A stretch of 13,579 nt of DNA from Verrucomicrobiota bacterium (GTDB lineage Bacteria; Verrucomicrobiota; Verrucomicrobiia; Chthoniobacterales; UBA10450): assembly GCA_003219395.1 (NCBI GenBank), contig QHOR01000026.1, forward strand, positions 1-13,579, written 5' to 3'. How positions within the stretch are numbered: position 1 is the stretch's first letter; each line of letters starts with the position of its first letter. The notes under the pieces were generated by a model that saw only the letters and a list, made by a program, of their open reading frames with translations, did no database searches and was not told where the DNA came from. A program made the translations under genes and the position numbers. Positions 1 through 7,407 of the stretch are shown here, in pieces.

Positions 1-949
1 AAGAAGGAATCCATCGTATGCCCCGCCGGCACCGGGTATTCCGGAAATTCATACCCGAGATTTTCGAGCGAAAACATGAGCCGCTCGGCCAGGCGCGATG
101 TGTTTTCAATTGTTGTTTCCGGCAAATCCGGGAAAATTGCTCGCATTTGCCCATCGCTCTTCAGATGCCGCTCGGCATTTTGCGTCAGCAATTTTCCCGC
201 AGCATCCAAATGCGTGTGCTCTCGAATACAGCTGAAGACATCAAGCACTTCGCGCCCGTACGGCTTCGCGTATTTCACACCGTTTGTTGCCAGGAGCGAT
301 AATCGGTATCCGCGTGCCAGATCGATCAGTTCGCGATTAACGCGTTCTTCACCCCGAATGAAATGTCGCTGAATTTCAACGAAAACATTTTCGCAGCCAA
401 ACGTGTCGATCAAAAATCGGGCGCGATCCGCAGATTTGTAGGGCGTTTGACGCGCTCGGTAAATGCATCCTGCGTTCGCGGACTTTTTCCGCTTCGTAAA
501 CCCATAGAAGTTCGTTTTGGCAGAATGCCAAAAGTCCGAGCTGGACTCGCATTAGCACGCTGCAAATGTGCGCTCCCCGATCCAAAGAGCGCTACCAATC
601 CTTTCGCAAATTCCGGTAGCTCATCCCATCGCACCGTGCATTTTCCTTTCTCGCTGCGCAGATGTGCCTTGGTCAGCAGCTCGCACAAATTTTTGTAGCC
701 GGTGCGATCTTCAACCAGCACAGGAAGCACTGCGCCGTCTTCCATCAACACTTCGCAGCCAATGATCGGGCGGACATTATGTTCACGCGCAGCGACGGAA
801 AATCGTTGCGCACCATACACCCCGTTGCGATCGAGCAACGCCATCGCCGGCATTTCCAGTTCGGCGGCGACCTCGGCTAATTGCTCTGGGAATGAACCGC
901 CGCGCAGAAAGCTAAATGCGCTGCACGCATGAAGTTCGACGTAGGACAT
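1..949 (-). pseudogene. dnaE2: Error-prone DNA polymerase DnaE2/ImuC, N-terminal part, frameshifted and cut by the window edge
   Basis: Encodes the start of the alpha-subunit-like translesion polymerase that works with ImuA/ImuB in SOS mutagenesis. The ATG at 949 opens a frame that reads as a DnaE2 PHP domain: ELHACSAFSFLRGGS (residues 5-19), ALLDRNGVYGA, PIIGCE, GYKNLCELLTKAHLRSEKG and GLVALFG (117-123). That frame stops at 410-412. The gene resumes one frame over, which is open from 551 to the left edge: ENVFVEIQRHFIRGEER, LLATNGVKYAKPYGREVLDV and HTHLDAAGKLL follow. A single shift must therefore lie between 551 and 412, where neither frame looks conserved. That segment is roughly 30 codons longer than I expect for the family and holds strong palindromes at 480-537. 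The gene may be a true pseudogene, a small insertion, or an assembly error. Identity is firm; functional state is not. No good ribosome binding site precedes the ATG. Confidence 0.86.
515..533. repeat. Perfect 8-bp inverted repeat inside dnaE2, nested in a second one
   Basis: TTTTGGCA at 515-522 and TGCCAAAA at 526-533 are exact reverse complements with a 3-base loop. A second exact pair, GGACTTTT at 480-487 and AAAAGTCC at 530-537, overlaps it. Both fall in the dnaE2 segment where the reading frame is lost and family similarity disappears, so this may be a small palindromic insertion. Seen directly; its origin is inference. Confidence 0.6.
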
Positions 950-1067: not shown

Positions 1068-2102
1068 TCAATCATAGATCCCGTCAATTTTCCAGCTTGC
1101 CTCCGATTCATGACAACGAACCAGTTCTCCAGTCTCCAATTGCAGATCCCAGTCTGCGAGTGCCCACAGTTTTTCATCCCACCAATTTCCGGAAAACAAA
1201 TACGGGCCGCGTTGATCGACGATTTTCCCACGAATATCTGCACCGCGAACGTGCGAAGGGCGGTCTTCATCCAACAGGACAGATCCAGATATTGCCGGCC
1301 GAAATCTTCGCAGCGCTGAGCGCAAAATATGGAGGGGCGAGCTCCTGCAAGCCTCGGGATATGATCCCGGCACCGAAGAGCTCCGCCCTAGATTGCGTGT
1401 CACCGAAGTTAGCGCCCACGCAAAAGGCTCTATCTGAAATGCATCTGGCCGATGCGTTTCTTCCAAAACCGGAGTACCGACACGATCAGCGCCCAGAAGA
1501 GCGGTCAAACGAGCAAGCGTTTCTGAGAGCTGATGCGGATTGCGTAACGTAGTTTCAAATAATCCGAATTGTTCTCTCGCAGGTTTGATCGGCTGCGCGC
1601 TCAGCGCGACCGCAACAATCGGATATTCGGATTTAAAATTCTCCAGATGCGTATGCAGCATCCGGAAGAGAAGGTCGATATTGTTGGTCGGCTGCGGAAT
1701 TTTGAAAGTGCGCTCGTAACTTTGTTTATCCGTGAAGGTGACGCGCAGGGTGAGTTCTTTTGCGACGAGATACATTCCGCCCAATCGAATGGCGAGTTGC
1801 TCCAAAAATCGGCGGAGCATGAACAGAAGTGGCTCGGCCGTTTCAATTTCGCTCTCAAATTCAAAACTCTCCTCGAATGACTCCGGGGGCCTGATGAGTT
1901 TGATTACTCTGCTAGATTGTCCATTTGCCCGCTCCCACAGTCGGATTGCTTCCGGTCCAAGTCGCGCCCCAAGCTGCTGCTTATCCAGCGCCGCAAGCTG
2001 ACCGATCATATGAATCCCCCATTTGTGCAGGATTGCCAGTATTTGGCAGATGTCGTTCTGCTGAGTTTTTGCTGCAGAATCCGACGAATCAAAGCGCTCC
2101 AT
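1068..2102 (-). CDS. imuB: N-terminally truncated ImuB (Y-family-like SOS mutagenesis adaptor), 344 aa
   Basis: ImuB is a catalytically inactive Y-family homologue that links DnaE2 to the sliding clamp during SOS mutagenesis. This product holds only the part after the palm and fingers. It has a helix-hairpin-helix/thumb region (about residues 18-62, LHKWGIHMIGQLAALDK), a little-finger-like region (about 75-175, LEQLAIRLGGMYLVAKEL) and a clamp-binding motif QFGLF at 178-182. It then has LARLTALLGADRVGTPVLEETHRPDAF in two adjoining stretches, and a C-terminal domain with ALRRFRPA, DQRGPYLFSGNWW and WKIDGIYD at the very end. Full-length ImuB is usually about 480-520 aa, so roughly 150-190 residues are missing. 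An in-frame TAA lies 9 bases upstream of the ATG and the helicase gene begins to overlap the space at 2152, so the missing part is not nearby. A LexA box lies 29 bases upstream. The frame is otherwise intact and well conserved. It could be a functional adaptor fragment or a recent remnant. Confidence 0.85.
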   Translation of the reverse strand: MERFDSSDSAAKTQQNDICQILAILHKWGIHMIGQLAALDKQQLGARLGPEAIRLWERANGQSSRVIKLIRPPESFEESFEFESEIETAEPLLFMLRRFLEQLAIRLGGMYLVAKELTLRVTFTDKQSYERTFKIPQPTNNIDLLFRMLHTHLENFKSEYPIVAVALSAQPIKPAREQFGLFETTLRNPHQLSETLARLTALLGADRVGTPVLEETHRPDAFQIEPFAWALTSVTRNLGRSSSVPGSYPEACRSSPLHILRSALRRFRPAISGSVLLDEDRPSHVRGADIRGKIVDQRGPYLFSGNWWDEKLWALADWDLQLETGELVRCHESEASWKIDGIYD

Positions 2103-2124
2103 GCGCGCAATTTAACCTGCGCAA

Positions 2125-2155
2125 CTTATATGTTCAAGTGAACATTGATGCTCAA
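2125..2155 (-). promoter_or_regulatory. LexA-regulated (SOS) promoter with perfect TGTTC-N4-GAACA box
   Basis: Minus strand: TTGAGC (2155-2150, possible -35), the 14-bp box TGTTCACTTGAACA (2144-2131), and TATAAG or CATATA (2132-2125, possible -10). The spacer is 17-19 bases depending on the -10 chosen. The arms extend to ATGTTCA/TGAACAT, fully symmetric around 2 bases. TGTTC-N4-GAACA is the LexA motif reported for Verrucomicrobia (established knowledge). A repressor bound here would sit between -35 and -10. The -35 overlaps the stop codon of the upstream helicase gene. The first gene downstream is the truncated imuB. Confidence 0.82.
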
Positions 2156-4134
2156 ATTATTTCGACTGGACACTTCGGCAACGCCTGCAGGAAAGCCCGG
2201 CCGTACGGCCTGGTCAGGACGCGACTGTCCAGGATGACGATAATGCCATGATCACTCTTTGTTCGGATCAAGCGTCCCACGCCCTGTCGCAATTTCAGGA
2301 TCGCTTCCGGAAGCGAATATTCAGTGAACGGATCGCCCCCGCGTTCCTCGATCAATTCAAGTTTCGCCTCCACCAACGGATGGTCCGGCACGGCAAATGG
2401 CAGACGCGTAATAACTACGTTCGAGAGCGCCTCACCTGGAACATCGACGCCCATCCAAAAACTGTCGGTGCCAAAAAGAACGCTGCGCGACGTGGTCTTG
2501 AATTGCTCCAACAGTTTTCCGCGCGGTGCGCCGCCGCCCTGCACCAGGAGATTGAAGTGCTTTTGCGAAAAGAATTGCGCCATTCGCTCGGCCACCTGCT
2601 GCATGCCGCGATGATTTGTAAAAAGTACGAACGCCCGCCCATCGGTTTTCTCGACAAAATGTGCGATCCAATGCTCCAGAGCTTGAGCGTACGTGGTCTC
2701 CCGAGGATCGGGCATTTTCTTCACGATGAATATTTTCATCTGTTTCTGGAAGTCGAACGGACTGCCGAGTAGCGCCGGCTCAACTTCGCCCGCCCCGATG
2801 CGTTGCCGAAAATAAGCGAGATCCGCGCGACCCACTGAGAGTGTCGCACTGGTCATGATGCACGAACAATTTTCACGAAAAAGCATTCGACGCAGCACAG
2901 GCGCAATATCGATTGGCGCAGCGTTAAGCGTAAGGAATTGGGCTGTCTTGCCGGTACGCTCGACCCAGTAAACGTGCTCTTGAGCGCTTTGCTCCAGGAA
3001 CGCTGCAATTCCCGCGCGTGCTTCGCGAATTCGCCTTGCGTATTCCTGTAATTCTGCTTTTAGAAAGTCGTCATCAGTACGCTTTACAACGTCGGCAACC
3101 CGCGCTTGCAACGCGGCGAACCGGTTCGTAATCGTGTCGGGCACCAGATCGGAGTCACGCACGCGAAACTCGCGGCCTTTTTTGAAATCGCATTTCGATT
3201 CAACCGCAGCAAAAAAAATTTCGGCGTCATCGACCAGTTCAGCCGCGAGTCTTACGCCCTCGGCATCGCGCGTTACGGTAAAAAGACCCTTGCGGGTGCG
3301 GGCATTGTAGAGCCGTTGGATGGTTGATCTCAGCCCGTACTGCGAGATGCCAATCCCAATTTGCCGTGAAGCGACTTGCTCGACCGTGTGTGCTTCATCC
3401 AAAATGAGGAAATCATTCGGAAAAATAAATCCGCTCTCGCGCTCTTCCTGCGCCTCCGGACTTATCAGCAGAATAAAGAGCAGCGTGTGATTAATCACCA
3501 GGACATCAGCGCCCAGCAAACGTTTGCGCGCTTGCTGATAAAAACAGCGGGAATCCTGGCCGCATGTTTTCTGTGTGCAGATATGCGCTTCGCTACAGAC
3601 CTGTACCCAAACTTTGGGATCCGGCTCGACCGATAAATCGCTGAGTGAACCATCACGAGTGGTGCGCGCCCATTCCGCAAGCCGGTTTAGCTCATTTTGC
3701 TCCGGCCCGGTAAAAAGCTCATTGGCTTGCTGCAACGCGCGTTCCAATCGCCGCGGACAAAGATAGTTTTGGCGGCCCTTGACCAACGCAGCCTTGAACT
3801 CGACCGGCAAAATCTTTTCTAAAATAGGGATATCTTTGTAAAGAAGTTGCTCCTGGAGATTGATGGTGTGAGTGGAGACGATTGCTTTTTTGTGCTGCTC
3901 GATCGCCCACAAGATTGCCGGCGTCAGGTAAGCCAGCGATTTTCCTACACCTGTTCCAGCTTCAATCACCAAATGACGCTCTTCCTCCAGCGCGTTGGCA
4001 ACAGCTGCAGCCATTTCCTGTTGTTGTGGACGGAACTCGAAATTCTTGGCCTTTGATAACGGGCCGCTTTCCGAGAAAAAAGCGCGGACACGTTCGACAA
4101 AATCGCTGCCTAAGGTGTTCTTCAGTGCAATCAT
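2152..4134 (-). CDS. DinG/XPD-family ATP-dependent DNA helicase with Fe-S cluster cysteines, 660 aa
   Basis: Superfamily 2 5'-3' helicase of the DinG/YoaA/XPD type, acting in DNA repair or structure resolution. Numbered from the ATG at 4134: Walker A EAGTGVGKS at 58-66; motif Ia STHTINLQEQL; four iron-sulfur cysteines at 126, 186, 191 and 197, whose spacing of the last three matches DinG; DEAH at 246-249. Later come ITSATLSVG, FTNHRG, GTDSFWMGVDVPGE, TRLPFAVPDHPL and the arginine-finger box QGVGRLIRT. A longer frame begins with TTG at 4179, but those 15 codons lie in the palindromic intergenic repeat and read as a non-conserved hydrophobic leader. The ATG before IALKNTLGS is therefore preferred. 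The gene is divergent from lptG. It ends inside the SOS promoter of imuB, so some imuB transcription might also come from read-through. DinG itself is an SOS gene in E. coli, but I see no LexA box at 4134-4348. Confidence 0.9.
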   Translation of the reverse strand: MIALKNTLGSDFVERVRAFFSESGPLSKAKNFEFRPQQQEMAAAVANALEEERHLVIEAGTGVGKSLAYLTPAILWAIEQHKKAIVSTHTINLQEQLLYKDIPILEKILPVEFKAALVKGRQNYLCPRRLERALQQANELFTGPEQNELNRLAEWARTTRDGSLSDLSVEPDPKVWVQVCSEAHICTQKTCGQDSRCFYQQARKRLLGADVLVINHTLLFILLISPEAQEERESGFIFPNDFLILDEAHTVEQVASRQIGIGISQYGLRSTIQRLYNARTRKGLFTVTRDAEGVRLAAELVDDAEIFFAAVESKCDFKKGREFRVRDSDLVPDTITNRFAALQARVADVVKRTDDDFLKAELQEYARRIREARAGIAAFLEQSAQEHVYWVERTGKTAQFLTLNAAPIDIAPVLRRMLFRENCSCIMTSATLSVGRADLAYFRQRIGAGEVEPALLGSPFDFQKQMKIFIVKKMPDPRETTYAQALEHWIAHFVEKTDGRAFVLFTNHRGMQQVAERMAQFFSQKHFNLLVQGGGAPRGKLLEQFKTTSRSVLFGTDSFWMGVDVPGEALSNVVITRLPFAVPDHPLVEAKLELIEERGGDPFTEYSLPEAILKLRQGVGRLIRTKSDHGIIVILDSRVLTRPYGRAFLQALPKCPVEII

Positions 4135-4148
4135 GAGGGGCAGTAGGA

Positions 4149-4275
4149 AATGACAAACCAAGAATGACGAATCATGCAAGAAGCCCGACTGCCGAATGAC
4201 GAACGGGCGAGGTCGCAGCTCTTTGTCGTTTGGTCATTTTGTTATTCCTTCGAGCTTCGTCATTCGGATTTCGTC
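4149..4275. repeat. Palindromic intergenic repeat built on the AATGACGAA motif
   Basis: Several copies of AATGACGAA-like units occur in both orientations: AATGACAAACC and GAATGACGAATC near 4149-4173, CCGAATGACGAA at 4192-4203, then TTTGTCGTTTGGTCATT, TTCGTCATTCGG at 4256-4267 and TTTCGTCAT. The 12-mers at 4192-4203 and 4256-4267 are exact reverse complements. It occupies most of the 214-base gap between two divergent genes, so promoters for both must lie in or beside it. I recall similar intergenic repeats in Chthoniobacterales-type genomes, but this needs a search. No coding potential is seen. Confidence 0.65.
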
Positions 4276-4348: not shown

Positions 4349-5488
4349 ATGAGACTTCTCGACCGGTACGTCATTCGCAATTTCCTGCAGGTCTATCTTT
4401 ACTGCATCGCCGGCTTCATCTCCATCTGGCTCATTTTCGACGTGAGCGATAACATCTCGACCTTTATCGATGAGCATGTGGGCCTGGTTCTGGTCGCCCG
4501 TTATTACGCCACTCAGATCCCGCAGGTTTTCATCATTCTACTTCCGGTTTCGCTTCTGCTATCGCTCCTTTTTGCTCTGGGCCGAATGTCGCGATCCAAC
4601 GAAATTGTCTCGATGCTCACCGCGGGTATAAGTCTTCCGCGTGTTCTGCTACCTCTGATTGGGATGGGACTTCTCACTGTTGGAGTCAGCATGGCGATGA
4701 ACTATTCGCTTGCGCCACATGCAGAACTGGCGCGCAAAACTTTTCTTTCGGAAGCGCAAGCCCGTCCGAGTCACTATGTCCAAGGGCAAATCTTTCGTAA
4801 TCGAACCGACTTGCGCACCTGGTTCATTCAAAATTTTCTGCCCCGAGGCAGTACATTCAATAACGTCCAGGTCCTTCAACAGGACGCGAACGACAACATC
4901 ATTACCAATTACGTCGCAAGTCGCGCATCCTATCGCCCGGAAGCCAAAACTTGGGATCTGGAGAACGTAAAGGTTGTTCACTACGATCCGGTGGGAAATA
5001 TTGTTGACGAGCAGATCTATCCTTCGCTCAAGATCGAGCACTGGAGTGAAACGCCATTCCGTCTCGGGAGCGCAAATGAACGCGCAGAATTTCTAAGTCT
5101 GCCTGAATTACGGGAGTATTTGCGTTTCAATTCAGATTTCCCAGCTACGTTGCTGGCACCGTTTCGCACCCATTTGTACTATCGGCTCGCTCTGCCGTGG
5201 ACCTGTTTGGTGGTCGTCTGCATCGCTGCACCGCTGGGAATCGGCTATTCGCGTCGCGGGGTATTGTCCAGTGTCGCCGCCGCGGTTTTTCTCGTCTTTT
5301 CGATGAACTTTCTGGTGCATCTGTTTCTCGCGCTGGGCGAAGGCGACCGCGTTTCTCCTTGGGTGGCGGCCTGGGCGCCAAACCTTCTGTTCGCCGCGAT
5401 CGGCCTCTATTTACTTTATCTGCGCGCATCCAACCGTGAACCTCCCAGTTTTAAGCTTTTCGCCGCGCGACGTATAGTATCACGATGA
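4349..5488 (+). CDS. LptF/LptG-family lipopolysaccharide export permease, 379 aa
   Basis: Inner-membrane permease of the LptB2FG transporter, which extracts lipopolysaccharide and passes it to LptC/LptA. The sequence begins MRLLDRYVIRNFL, more like LptG than LptF. Membrane segments fall at about 12-31, 56-78, 97-117, 280-296, 304-328 and 339-360. A large periplasmic domain (about 120-275) between segments 3 and 4 gives the family's 3+3 layout. The conserved SNEIVSMLTAGISLPRVL follows segment 2. Length is normal for the family. It is the first gene of a plus-strand operon whose next gene overlaps it by ATGA. The start has no clear ribosome binding site, and a weak TTGAAT near 4310 is the only -35 candidate. 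LptF versus LptG is left open. Confidence 0.92.
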   Translation: MRLLDRYVIRNFLQVYLYCIAGFISIWLIFDVSDNISTFIDEHVGLVLVARYYATQIPQVFIILLPVSLLLSLLFALGRMSRSNEIVSMLTAGISLPRVLLPLIGMGLLTVGVSMAMNYSLAPHAELARKTFLSEAQARPSHYVQGQIFRNRTDLRTWFIQNFLPRGSTFNNVQVLQQDANDNIITNYVASRASYRPEAKTWDLENVKVVHYDPVGNIVDEQIYPSLKIEHWSETPFRLGSANERAEFLSLPELREYLRFNSDFPATLLAPFRTHLYYRLALPWTCLVVVCIAAPLGIGYSRRGVLSSVAAAVFLVFSMNFLVHLFLALGEGDRVSPWVAAWAPNLLFAAIGLYLLYLRASNREPPSFKLFAARRIVSR

Positions 5489-5994
5489 ACCCGCTTCCAA
5501 ACGAATGGGCAATCACACATCGGGCAGACAGCTGCGCAGCGACACATCGACCGTTTGTCGCCGGCGAATATTTTTACACGCTGCTCTATCACAGTGCGGA
5601 CGGCTATCGGCGCGAGGATTTGAGTGAAGAGGCGTGGCAAAACCGGAATGAAAACATTCAGCCATTTTCATTTTGGAGATCACGTTACGAACCTTTACCA
5701 CCCAAGCCGCCCGAACCGCTTCCGAGAGAAAATGCGGAACAACTCTTTCGCCGTTTAATTGAATCCCAGAATCCGCCTGCGAATGCCTGCTATGTCCTTG
5801 CCGCAATGCTTGAGCGCAAGCGCGTCCTGAAACAAGTGAAGACGGAAGAGAGTACCAACGGGCGTGTTTTGATTTACGAACACGACGCGACCGGCGATGT
5901 GTTCGTTGTGCCCGATCCGCAATTGCGGCTGGACGAGTTGGAAAACGTGCAAAACGAAGTGGCAGAGCTGCTCCAAGCTGCGGCACATGCTTGA
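5485..5994 (+). CDS. Conserved hypothetical protein, probably PVC-superphylum specific, 169 aa
   Basis: Function unknown. The start overlaps the permease stop as ATGA (5485-5488), so translation is probably coupled. Visible features: a CAATHRPFVAGEYFYTLLYH block (cysteine 17) that resembles a treble-clef or zinc-ribbon half, WRSRYEP after NIQPFSFW (about 58-70), a proline-rich linker (PKPPEPLPRE), a helical block ACYVLAAMLERKRVLKQVKTEE, then FVVPDPQLRLDELENVQNEVAELL at the C-terminus. There is no signal peptide or membrane segment, so it is probably cytosolic. From memory, Planctomycetes and Verrucomicrobia carry small proteins with the same order: a Cys-x2-T block, FxFWR, LxRKR, VxDP and a final VQ helix. 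That link is inference. The only other Cys is near the LAAMLERKR block, so metal binding within one chain is doubtful. Confidence 0.85.
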   Translation: MNPLPNEWAITHRADSCAATHRPFVAGEYFYTLLYHSADGYRREDLSEEAWQNRNENIQPFSFWRSRYEPLPPKPPEPLPRENAEQLFRRLIESQNPPANACYVLAAMLERKRVLKQVKTEESTNGRVLIYEHDATGDVFVVPDPQLRLDELENVQNEVAELLQAAAHA

Positions 5995-6003
5995 AAGATC
6001 GAC

Positions 6004-7026
6004 ATGCTTCTTCCCTGGTTTTTCGAAAAATTTCCTCTTTATCTCGCGCCGATGGCCGGGGTGTCGGACAAAATTTTCCGACAGCTCTGCAAGGAATATG
6101 GCGCGGACGTTCTCACGACCGAATTCGTTTCTGCCGAAGGAATTTTCCGCCGCAATGCGCGGACGCGTGAATACCTGGATTTTGATGAGATCGAACGCCC
6201 AATTGGTGTGCAACTCTTCGGTGCCGACCGCAATCACATGGCGGAAGCGGCGTGCCAGGTCGTCGATTGGGTGGATCCAGATTTCATCGATCTGAACTTC
6301 GGTTGCCCTGTTAAGAAAGTAGTCTCCAGAAATGGCGGCTCCGCGTTGTTGAAAGATTGTGCGACTTTGGCCAGCGTGGCGGCCGCGGTAGTTCGAGCGA
6401 TCGCGCCACTGCCGGTAACGGCCAAGATCCGCATCGGCTGGGATGCCAGCTCGATTAACGCCACGCGCGTAGCATGCCTGCTCGTTGACGCAGGGGTCGC
6501 GGCGATAACTGTGCACGGTCGCACACGCGCGCAAGGTTATGCTGGCGCCGCAGATTGGGATGTTATCGGCGAAGTTGCCGCCGCTGTTCCGATTCCGGTT
6601 ATCGGGAACGGCGATCTATCCAGTGCCGACGACGTCGCGAAACGACGGCGTGAAGCTGGAGTCGCGGGCGCAATGATCGGTCGCGCAGCCATGCGCGCCC
6701 CATGGATCTTCAATCAGATCAAAGAATATCTCGCCAGCGGAAAAATGGCGGATGCACCCAGCCTGTCGCAAAAATGGAACTTAGTGATGCGGCACTGCCA
6801 GTTCGCGGTTCGCGAATTTGGCGCGGAGGAATCCGCAATTCGCTCCATGCGCGCGCGCCTGATGGCTTATTCTTGGACTATGCCTCGCGCGAAACGGTTG
6901 CGTGAAAACTTTGCACATGTGTCGACGCTCGCCGAAGTTGAAGCGATCGCGGAAGAAAATATCTCGAATGAACAAATTATGGGCAGGGAGCAGGAAAATG
7001 CGATCCCAGCATTGCTGCTTTCCTAA
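6004..7026 (+). CDS. dusB: tRNA-dihydrouridine synthase, DusB-type, 340 aa
   Basis: FMN enzyme that reduces uridines in the D-loop of tRNA with NADPH. The TIM-barrel start YLAPMAGVSDKIFRQLCKEYGAD is at 13-35. LTTEFVSAEG and PIGVQLFG follow, then the catalytic cysteine, Cys101, in DLNFGCPVKKV with GGSALLKD behind it. Next come VTAKIRIGWD, the histidine block ITVHGRTRAQGYAG (FMN and tRNA contacts), PVIGNGDL and the phosphate site GAMIGRAAMRAPWIF. The C-terminal helical tRNA-binding domain includes RSMRARLMAYSW. Length fits the family. It begins 9 bases after the preceding hypothetical gene, with only a weak GAAAG ahead of the ATG. Confidence 0.95.
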   Translation: MLLPWFFEKFPLYLAPMAGVSDKIFRQLCKEYGADVLTTEFVSAEGIFRRNARTREYLDFDEIERPIGVQLFGADRNHMAEAACQVVDWVDPDFIDLNFGCPVKKVVSRNGGSALLKDCATLASVAAAVVRAIAPLPVTAKIRIGWDASSINATRVACLLVDAGVAAITVHGRTRAQGYAGAADWDVIGEVAAAVPIPVIGNGDLSSADDVAKRRREAGVAGAMIGRAAMRAPWIFNQIKEYLASGKMADAPSLSQKWNLVMRHCQFAVREFGAEESAIRSMRARLMAYSWTMPRAKRLRENFAHVSTLAEVEAIAEENISNEQIMGREQENAIPALLLS

Positions 7027-7035
7027 CGTTTTTCC

Positions 7036-7407
7036 ATGACGACGGAATCCACCGCTACCAATTATAAAATCGGCAATGAACGCCTGATCAGCGTCACCGA
7101 AAAAGCTGCGCGAAAGCTGGAGTCGCTGCTGGAAGAAAAAGGCAAGCCAGAGGGGGCGTTGCGTCTGGCTGTGGTAGGCGGTGGCTGCTCCGGACTGCAA
7201 TATGTCATGGACCTGGTAGAGGGCCCGAAGCAGCGCGATATCCTGGTTCCGACCTCAAATGTTCGCCTGGTTGTCGATCCGAAGAGCGCACTTTTCGTCA
7301 GCGGCTCGGTGCTCGATTACAGCGAAGACCTGCAAAAGGGTGGCTTCAGAGTCACCAATCCGAATGCAGTTGCGCACTGCTCGTGCGGAGAAAGTTTTGC
7401 GGTGTAG
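7036..7407 (+). CDS. erpA: A-type iron-sulfur cluster carrier (ErpA/IscA family), 123 aa
   Basis: Small carrier that delivers iron-sulfur clusters to apo-proteins. The HesB/IscA fold begins at ISVTEKAARKLESLLEE (about 18-35). The three cluster ligands are Cys51 (GGGCSGLQY), Cys115 and Cys117 (AHCSCGESF near the C-terminus). ErpA and IscA cannot be told apart with certainty from this, so the symbol is tentative. It is the last gene of the plus-strand operon, 9 bases after dusB, and converges on frr. No clear terminator is seen in the 177 bases (7408-7584) between the two genes. Confidence 0.9.
   Translation: MTTESTATNYKIGNERLISVTEKAARKLESLLEEKGKPEGALRLAVVGGGCSGLQYVMDLVEGPKQRDILVPTSNVRLVVDPKSALFVSGSVLDYSEDLQKGGFRVTNPNAVAHCSCGESFAV

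Follow-up and report, generated by a model that had tools for sequence, protein, structure and literature searches.

We propose that ImuB, in the verrucomicrobial family to which the analysed stretch of 13,579 nucleotides (the window) belongs, consists of two chains encoded in two operons. The split, its exact place, its retention across the clade, the purifying selection on both halves and the common operator architecture follow directly from the computation, and we consider it likely that an old gene fission turned ImuB into a two-subunit protein while the ImuA-ImuB-DnaE2 mutasome around it stayed ordinary. According to this model, ImuB would have been broken once, in the family ancestor, exactly between palm and thumb. 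The window gene would be the back half, comprising thumb, little finger, clamp motif, RecA-NT region and tail, and the front half, a pseudo-catalytic palm with fingers, would persist as a gene of its own behind lexA-imuA. LexA, through predicted binding, would shut off both operons by occupying a -35 element that is part of its box, and after damage both halves would be made together. The two chains would then re-associate into an ImuB linking ImuA, the sliding clamp and DnaE2, in a presumably mutagenic complex.

The window gene (positions 1068-2102, reverse strand) encodes 344 amino acids that align with the thumb-to-tail part of one-chain ImuB. Pfam detected IMS_C in it and no IMS domain, which bears out the original prediction of an imuB fragment lacking its front. 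Alignment and a structural model place a thumb with a helix-hairpin-helix at about residues 20-60 (1923-2045, on the reverse strand like all features of this gene), and PF11799 together with the model indicates a little finger at about residues 76-172 (1587-1877). A clamp-binding-type motif, QFGLF, follows at residues 178-182 (1557-1571) and is conserved in 51 sequences, with Q178 invariant and F179, L181 and F182 each present in at least 90%; its putative function is assigned by comparison with PMC10421592, in the available part of which the ImuB clamp motif is described as essential in mycobacteria. Residues 189-213 (1464-1538) form a helix and a strand in the model at the place of the RecA-NT motif, and are a putative RecA-NT region by position and by the pattern given in the available part of PMC6511836 rather than by a profile. 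The C-terminal beta-rich domain of the model (residues 270-344, 1071-1295), known as ImuB-C in the literature, holds the invariant residues W307, W308, W313, W318, G341 and Y343. According to the available part of PMC12926913, thumb and tail of ImuB contact DnaE2 in models. The window protein was modelled as separate domains (pLDDT 77.6, pTM 0.43), and its matches to Y-family structures covered approximately 150-200 columns with a low whole-chain TM. The linker before the tail (window 1300-1415) is very variable in length among the relatives, low in model confidence, and contains repeat-like peptides in some of them (e.g. L015, L024).

Relatives of the 344-aa protein were found in 40 of the 58 genomes of a first relatives' set. 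Across the family, 68 of 83 genomes, representing 12 of 14 genera, encode a short ImuB with the same thumb, little finger, clamp motif and tail, in frames of at most 398 aa and never at full length. The 18 named contigs carrying the gene come from soil Verrucomicrobia MAGs, one of them named Candidatus Udaeobacter sp. Outside the family, strong ImuB matches (E below 1e-40) in a search of the order, covering 157 genomes at least 85% complete, lay in frames of at least 484 aa except for two cut by contig ends (G121, G117). Among the matches listed for a class-level sample of 383 genomes, the strong non-family ones (E below 1e-28) had frames of at least 478 aa, again except for the contig-end-cut G117. 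Outgroup loci fetched whole carry imuA, a one-chain imuB and dnaE2 as direct neighbours, in many cases together with lexA.

A search for IMS domains located, in the genus, a small second IMS gene directly behind lexA and an imuA-like gene. This palm/fingers half, a separate gene of about 175 aa after lexA-imuA, has strong matches in 73 of the 83 family genomes; a 74th candidate (G036) is only a weak DinB-like match. Sixty-nine of the 73 palm genes are whole, with lengths of 172-208 aa and ends no more than 17 residues after a PLPIETL-like motif, the exceptions being one of 239 aa (G068) and three cut by contig ends (G009, G063, G025). When aligned to one-chain ImuB, the end of the palm gene and the start of the window gene flank the palm/thumb junction, and by this alignment the fission removed no domain, a few linker residues falling to neither half. 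Inspected by eye, the palm is devoid of catalytic carboxylates, the first motif (YLPNF) having no D and V-E standing where D-E would be; the comparison is with what we take to be the DinB motif, also seen in the DinB-like sequences here. The model of the palm from G016 (pLDDT 89.5, pTM 0.81) matches Y-family palms, with a TM of 0.71/0.69 against the isolated Dbh catalytic fragment 1im4. As for the neighbouring imuA, the NCBIfam ImuA model matched 53 of 58 genomes, none above its cut-off; the best matches, in frames of 350-380 aa, were rejected as ImuA and taken as RecA, and ImuA was read from weaker matches adjoining lexA together with a Pfam RecA match.

Both halves are present in 62 of the 83 family genomes, with the back half only in 6, the palm only in 11 and neither in 4. 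Over the whole set this co-occurrence is non-significant taken alone (Fisher one-sided p 0.076) because many bins are incomplete. Among the 32 genomes at least 90% complete, 28 encode both, two the palm only (G002, G061) and two neither; at 92% or more (24 genomes), 23 encode both, none a single half and one neither, and all 15 genomes at 95% or more encode both. The one genome without either half in the second group, G036 (genus g3, 93% complete), also had no LexA and an ImuA-model match of RecA length only.

Both genes evolve under purifying selection: at dS below 1.5, the median dN/dS was 0.169 over 810 palm pairs and 0.171 over 491 back-half pairs; the closest back-half pairs have higher values, e.g. 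0.40 for the window's bin (G000) and G016. Palm-to-back-half ratios of log distances were 1.03 for 59 split genomes and 1.26 for 16 one-chain outgroups. By this measure of sequence divergence, the freed palm is constrained no less than before. The trees of both halves recover the family as monophyletic with G104 and G106 as sisters, with a support of 0.20 for the family clade in the palm tree and 0.94 in the back-half tree, and they have 22 of 56 splits in common, compared to at most 2 in 200 shuffles.

Upstream of the window gene lies a DinG/YoaA-like helicase gene (2152-4179, reverse strand), and beyond it on the forward strand an lptF/G-like gene, an unknown gene of 169 aa, a dus-like gene and an Fe-S assembly gene (together 4349-7407). 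In 21 relatives, the lexA-imuA-palm genes are found beyond the block from lptF/G to the Fe-S gene. The typical arrangement is dnaE2 - back half - dinG, followed divergently by lptF - (small gene) - dusB - Fe-S gene - lexA - imuA - palm, with dusB undetected in L101 and L102. Where the halves share a contig (21 genomes), they are always divergent and 5.8-16.8 kb apart; in 41 of the 62 two-half genomes they are on different contigs. The window and its nearest relative, G016, have other genes after the Fe-S gene, and in G016 lexA-imuA and imuA-palm are located on other contigs. A single inversion with breakpoints in imuB and behind dinG would yield the observed order and would be its simplest origin. 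Neither dinG nor lptF adjoins the fetched outgroup cassettes, which therefore lend this putative inversion no independent support.

Between the stop of the DinG/YoaA-like gene and the 344-aa ImuB piece lies a LexA-type operator, TGTTCACTTGAACA (2131-2144, reverse strand), the sole zero-mismatch match in the window. A perfect TGTTC-N4-GAACA palindrome is expected there 0.01 times by chance and occurred in 3 of 200 shuffles; with up to two mismatches allowed there were 11 matches versus 6.1 expected, and the weight therefore falls on the perfect box alone. The Verrucomicrobial LexA operator reportedly has this motif, described by Erill in 2016, and the matching palindrome is present upstream of SOS genes in the family. 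The original prediction of a perfect, undecayed LexA-type box directly ahead of a front-less ImuB thus agrees with our results, and two of its details need correction: the gap to the ATG (first base 2102) counts 28 rather than 29 bases, and the box is not placed between -35- and -10-like hexamers, since its right arm itself holds the -35-like TTGAAC (2132-2137, reverse strand). A -10-like TAAATT (2109-2114, reverse strand) follows 17 bases after TTGAAC and 6 bases before the ATG, a position that would imply a leaderless or nearly leaderless transcript. A sigma-70 scan of 2050-2260 returned no promoter reaching the scan threshold, so the promoter reading depends on conservation among the relatives.

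We searched the 400 bases upstream of the back half at 66 usable loci of 68 and found a perfect box at 48, a box with one mismatch at one and none at 17; two of these 17 (G004, G019) have boxes in which both arms are changed alike. Before imuA, in 72 family genomes, the box is perfect in 53, has one mismatch in 10 and is missing in 9, several of which have no upstream sequence. TT precedes GAAC in all 48 perfect back-half boxes and all 53 perfect imuA boxes, so that the right arm reads TTGAAC. A TAAATT-like hexamer (at least five of six matches) is present in 43 of the 48 perfect-box back-half promoters versus 4.3% of shuffles, mostly 16-18 bases past TTGAAC and 6-8 bases before the ATG. The expectation that intact cassettes carry the box before imuA was borne out in 6 one-chain outgroup genomes out of 19, five with a perfect box and one with a single mismatch; one of the 19 has no upstream sequence.

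Genome-wide, perfect boxes number 2-6 per genome in five genomes, with control matches in two of them (3 and 1). A perfect-box search was rejected as a regulon map, the sites being too few and most of the other boxes lying in genes or far from them. In G093 (L266 1501, G093:C2), one perfect box was observed 37 bases ahead of a radical-SAM gene that we take to resemble splB. In several deeper genera, a gene X of about 645 aa with repeats is located between dinG and the back half (e.g. L148 13922-15862). Over 15 such intervals, a survey that leaves the box-less loci G085, G087, G088 and G092 outside, a box with no or one mismatch precedes gene X in eight; in two others a different gene, transporter-like, takes the place of X, in two the box comes after X, and three are without a box. 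Gene X was considered as the donor of the back-half LexA box, but 20 X-like outgroup loci yielded a single box, with one mismatch, and so this idea stays a guess.

The window's own bin (G000, 62% complete) shows no lexA, imuA or palm/IMS gene and an ImuA-model match of RecA length only. The reading of this as a real loss of lexA was rejected on the strength of LexA matches in 32 of 34 relatives from the same genus. Its dnaE2 looks broken: a first part with the PHP domain (410-949, reverse strand) changes frame near 410 and continues in another frame (3-413, reverse strand) until cut by the window end, whereas the G016 gene, of 1092 aa, has a single frame. About 150 bases (410-560) are strongly unlike G016, and part of this stretch recurs in the same bin (79% over 70 bases; 92% over 26); this might stem from a dispersed repeat or from faulty assembly.

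A different reading of these data is that the back half alone is a reduced but working ImuB and that the palm gene has another job, e.g. with ImuA. This possibility strikes us as rather doubtful. It is in line with the palm gene travelling with imuA and the back half with dnaE2, with the six genomes that have a back half and no palm gene, and with PMC12926913, according to which thumb, little finger and tail, the DnaE2 contacts in models, persist even in those ImuB proteins that are reduced furthest. However, none of the six back-half-only genomes exceeds 85% completeness, single halves disappear at 92% completeness and above, and the palm, measured against the back half, is under constraint equal to or stronger than that in one-chain ImuB. 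The window by itself, with its missing front and intact box, fits the deletion that was originally envisaged to have taken the front of imuB and fused an SOS promoter to the remnant. The observation of an undecayed box ahead of a front-less ImuB stands, whereas the fusion does not: the family-wide short form, the separately kept palm gene, the common boundary and purifying selection on both halves refute a recent deletion, to which we attach hardly any credence.

Equally, the fragmented state of most bins, including the window's, might suggest an assembly or binning artefact, but the boundary is identical in the 69 whole palm genes, and in genomes assembled into 20-50 contigs, such as G077, G078, G079, G082, G084 and G094, a single long contig bears both halves in divergent orientation, leaving this explanation with a vanishingly small probability. 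It is also very unlikely that the likeness of the box to a LexA site is due to chance. The cognate LexA is absent from the bin, and perfect boxes are rare genome-wide and partly located inside or far from genes; yet in different genera the box keeps its position and spacing upstream of two genes that belong to one pathway, and LexA is encoded by nearly all same-genus relatives.

Within the preferred model of a two-subunit ImuB, we see about even chances that one subunit, the palm, is produced with ImuA and the other, thumb-finger-tail, with DnaE2, each under separate LexA control, and that the two meet only after damage. If true, mutasome assembly would depend on induction of both operons. The dead palm of ImuB has been cut free yet kept, which makes its role testable by removing one small gene, and the break in this polymerase-fold protein, precise and conserved throughout a family, offers a clean case of gene fission under kept co-regulation.

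The family has the lexA, imuA, imuB and dnaE2 parts of the LexA-controlled ImuA-ImuB-DnaE2 mutasome of Mycobacterium, Pseudomonas and Caulobacter, and likewise its replaced catalytic palm residues, clamp-type motif and LexA-type boxes. Linkage of imuA, imuB and dnaE2 with lexA is seen in family loci, the window itself holding the back half and dnaE2 only. Unlike that mutasome, where ImuB is one chain, the family builds ImuB as two chains from two operons. The term 'split ImuB' occurred in our literature search only in PMC12926913, in the available part of which it denotes the iPolY and standalone ImuB-C of DnaE2X systems. There, too, ImuB functions are spread over two genes, but with RecA as partner and with a break that separates the polymerase part from the tail domain. 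In the family, the break is between palm and thumb rather than between little finger and tail, and an imuA-like gene, not expected in DnaE2X systems, is present. The reduced ImuB proteins of the same source retain thumb, little finger and tail, just as the window gene does, whereas the family also retains the removed palm as its own conserved gene, a feature that the available part of PMC12926913 does not mention for reduced ImuB. The mycobacterial imuA'-imuB/dnaE2 cassette is similarly divided over two loci, although its genes, as described in the available parts of PMC10421592 and PMC6511836, are separated but whole and the family gene is cut. No paper found in the search contained both Udaeobacter and translesion. 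We conclude that the palm/thumb fission of ImuB is new in the sense of being absent from the literature searched, supplements excluded.

Fusions were also observed among related polymerase genes. A DinB-like Y-family polymerase and a DnaE-type alpha subunit share one frame in L221 2217-5999 (G160) and in L283 (G199), L284 (G327), L285 (G461) and L286 (G161), with lengths from 1261 aa (cut) to 1543 aa. IMS, IMS_C, PHP, pol3 alpha, finger and HHH_6 domains were detected in the four tested, and L286 was assigned by reading only; a LexA-type box is present near the start of the fusions in L221 and L286. Finally, a 1583-aa frame (L282 1198-5946, G381:C6) joins ImuB, with its IMS domain, to a DnaE2-like subunit; its ImuB part matches the window protein with an E of 4.8e-43, and this fusion is the opposite of the window's fission.
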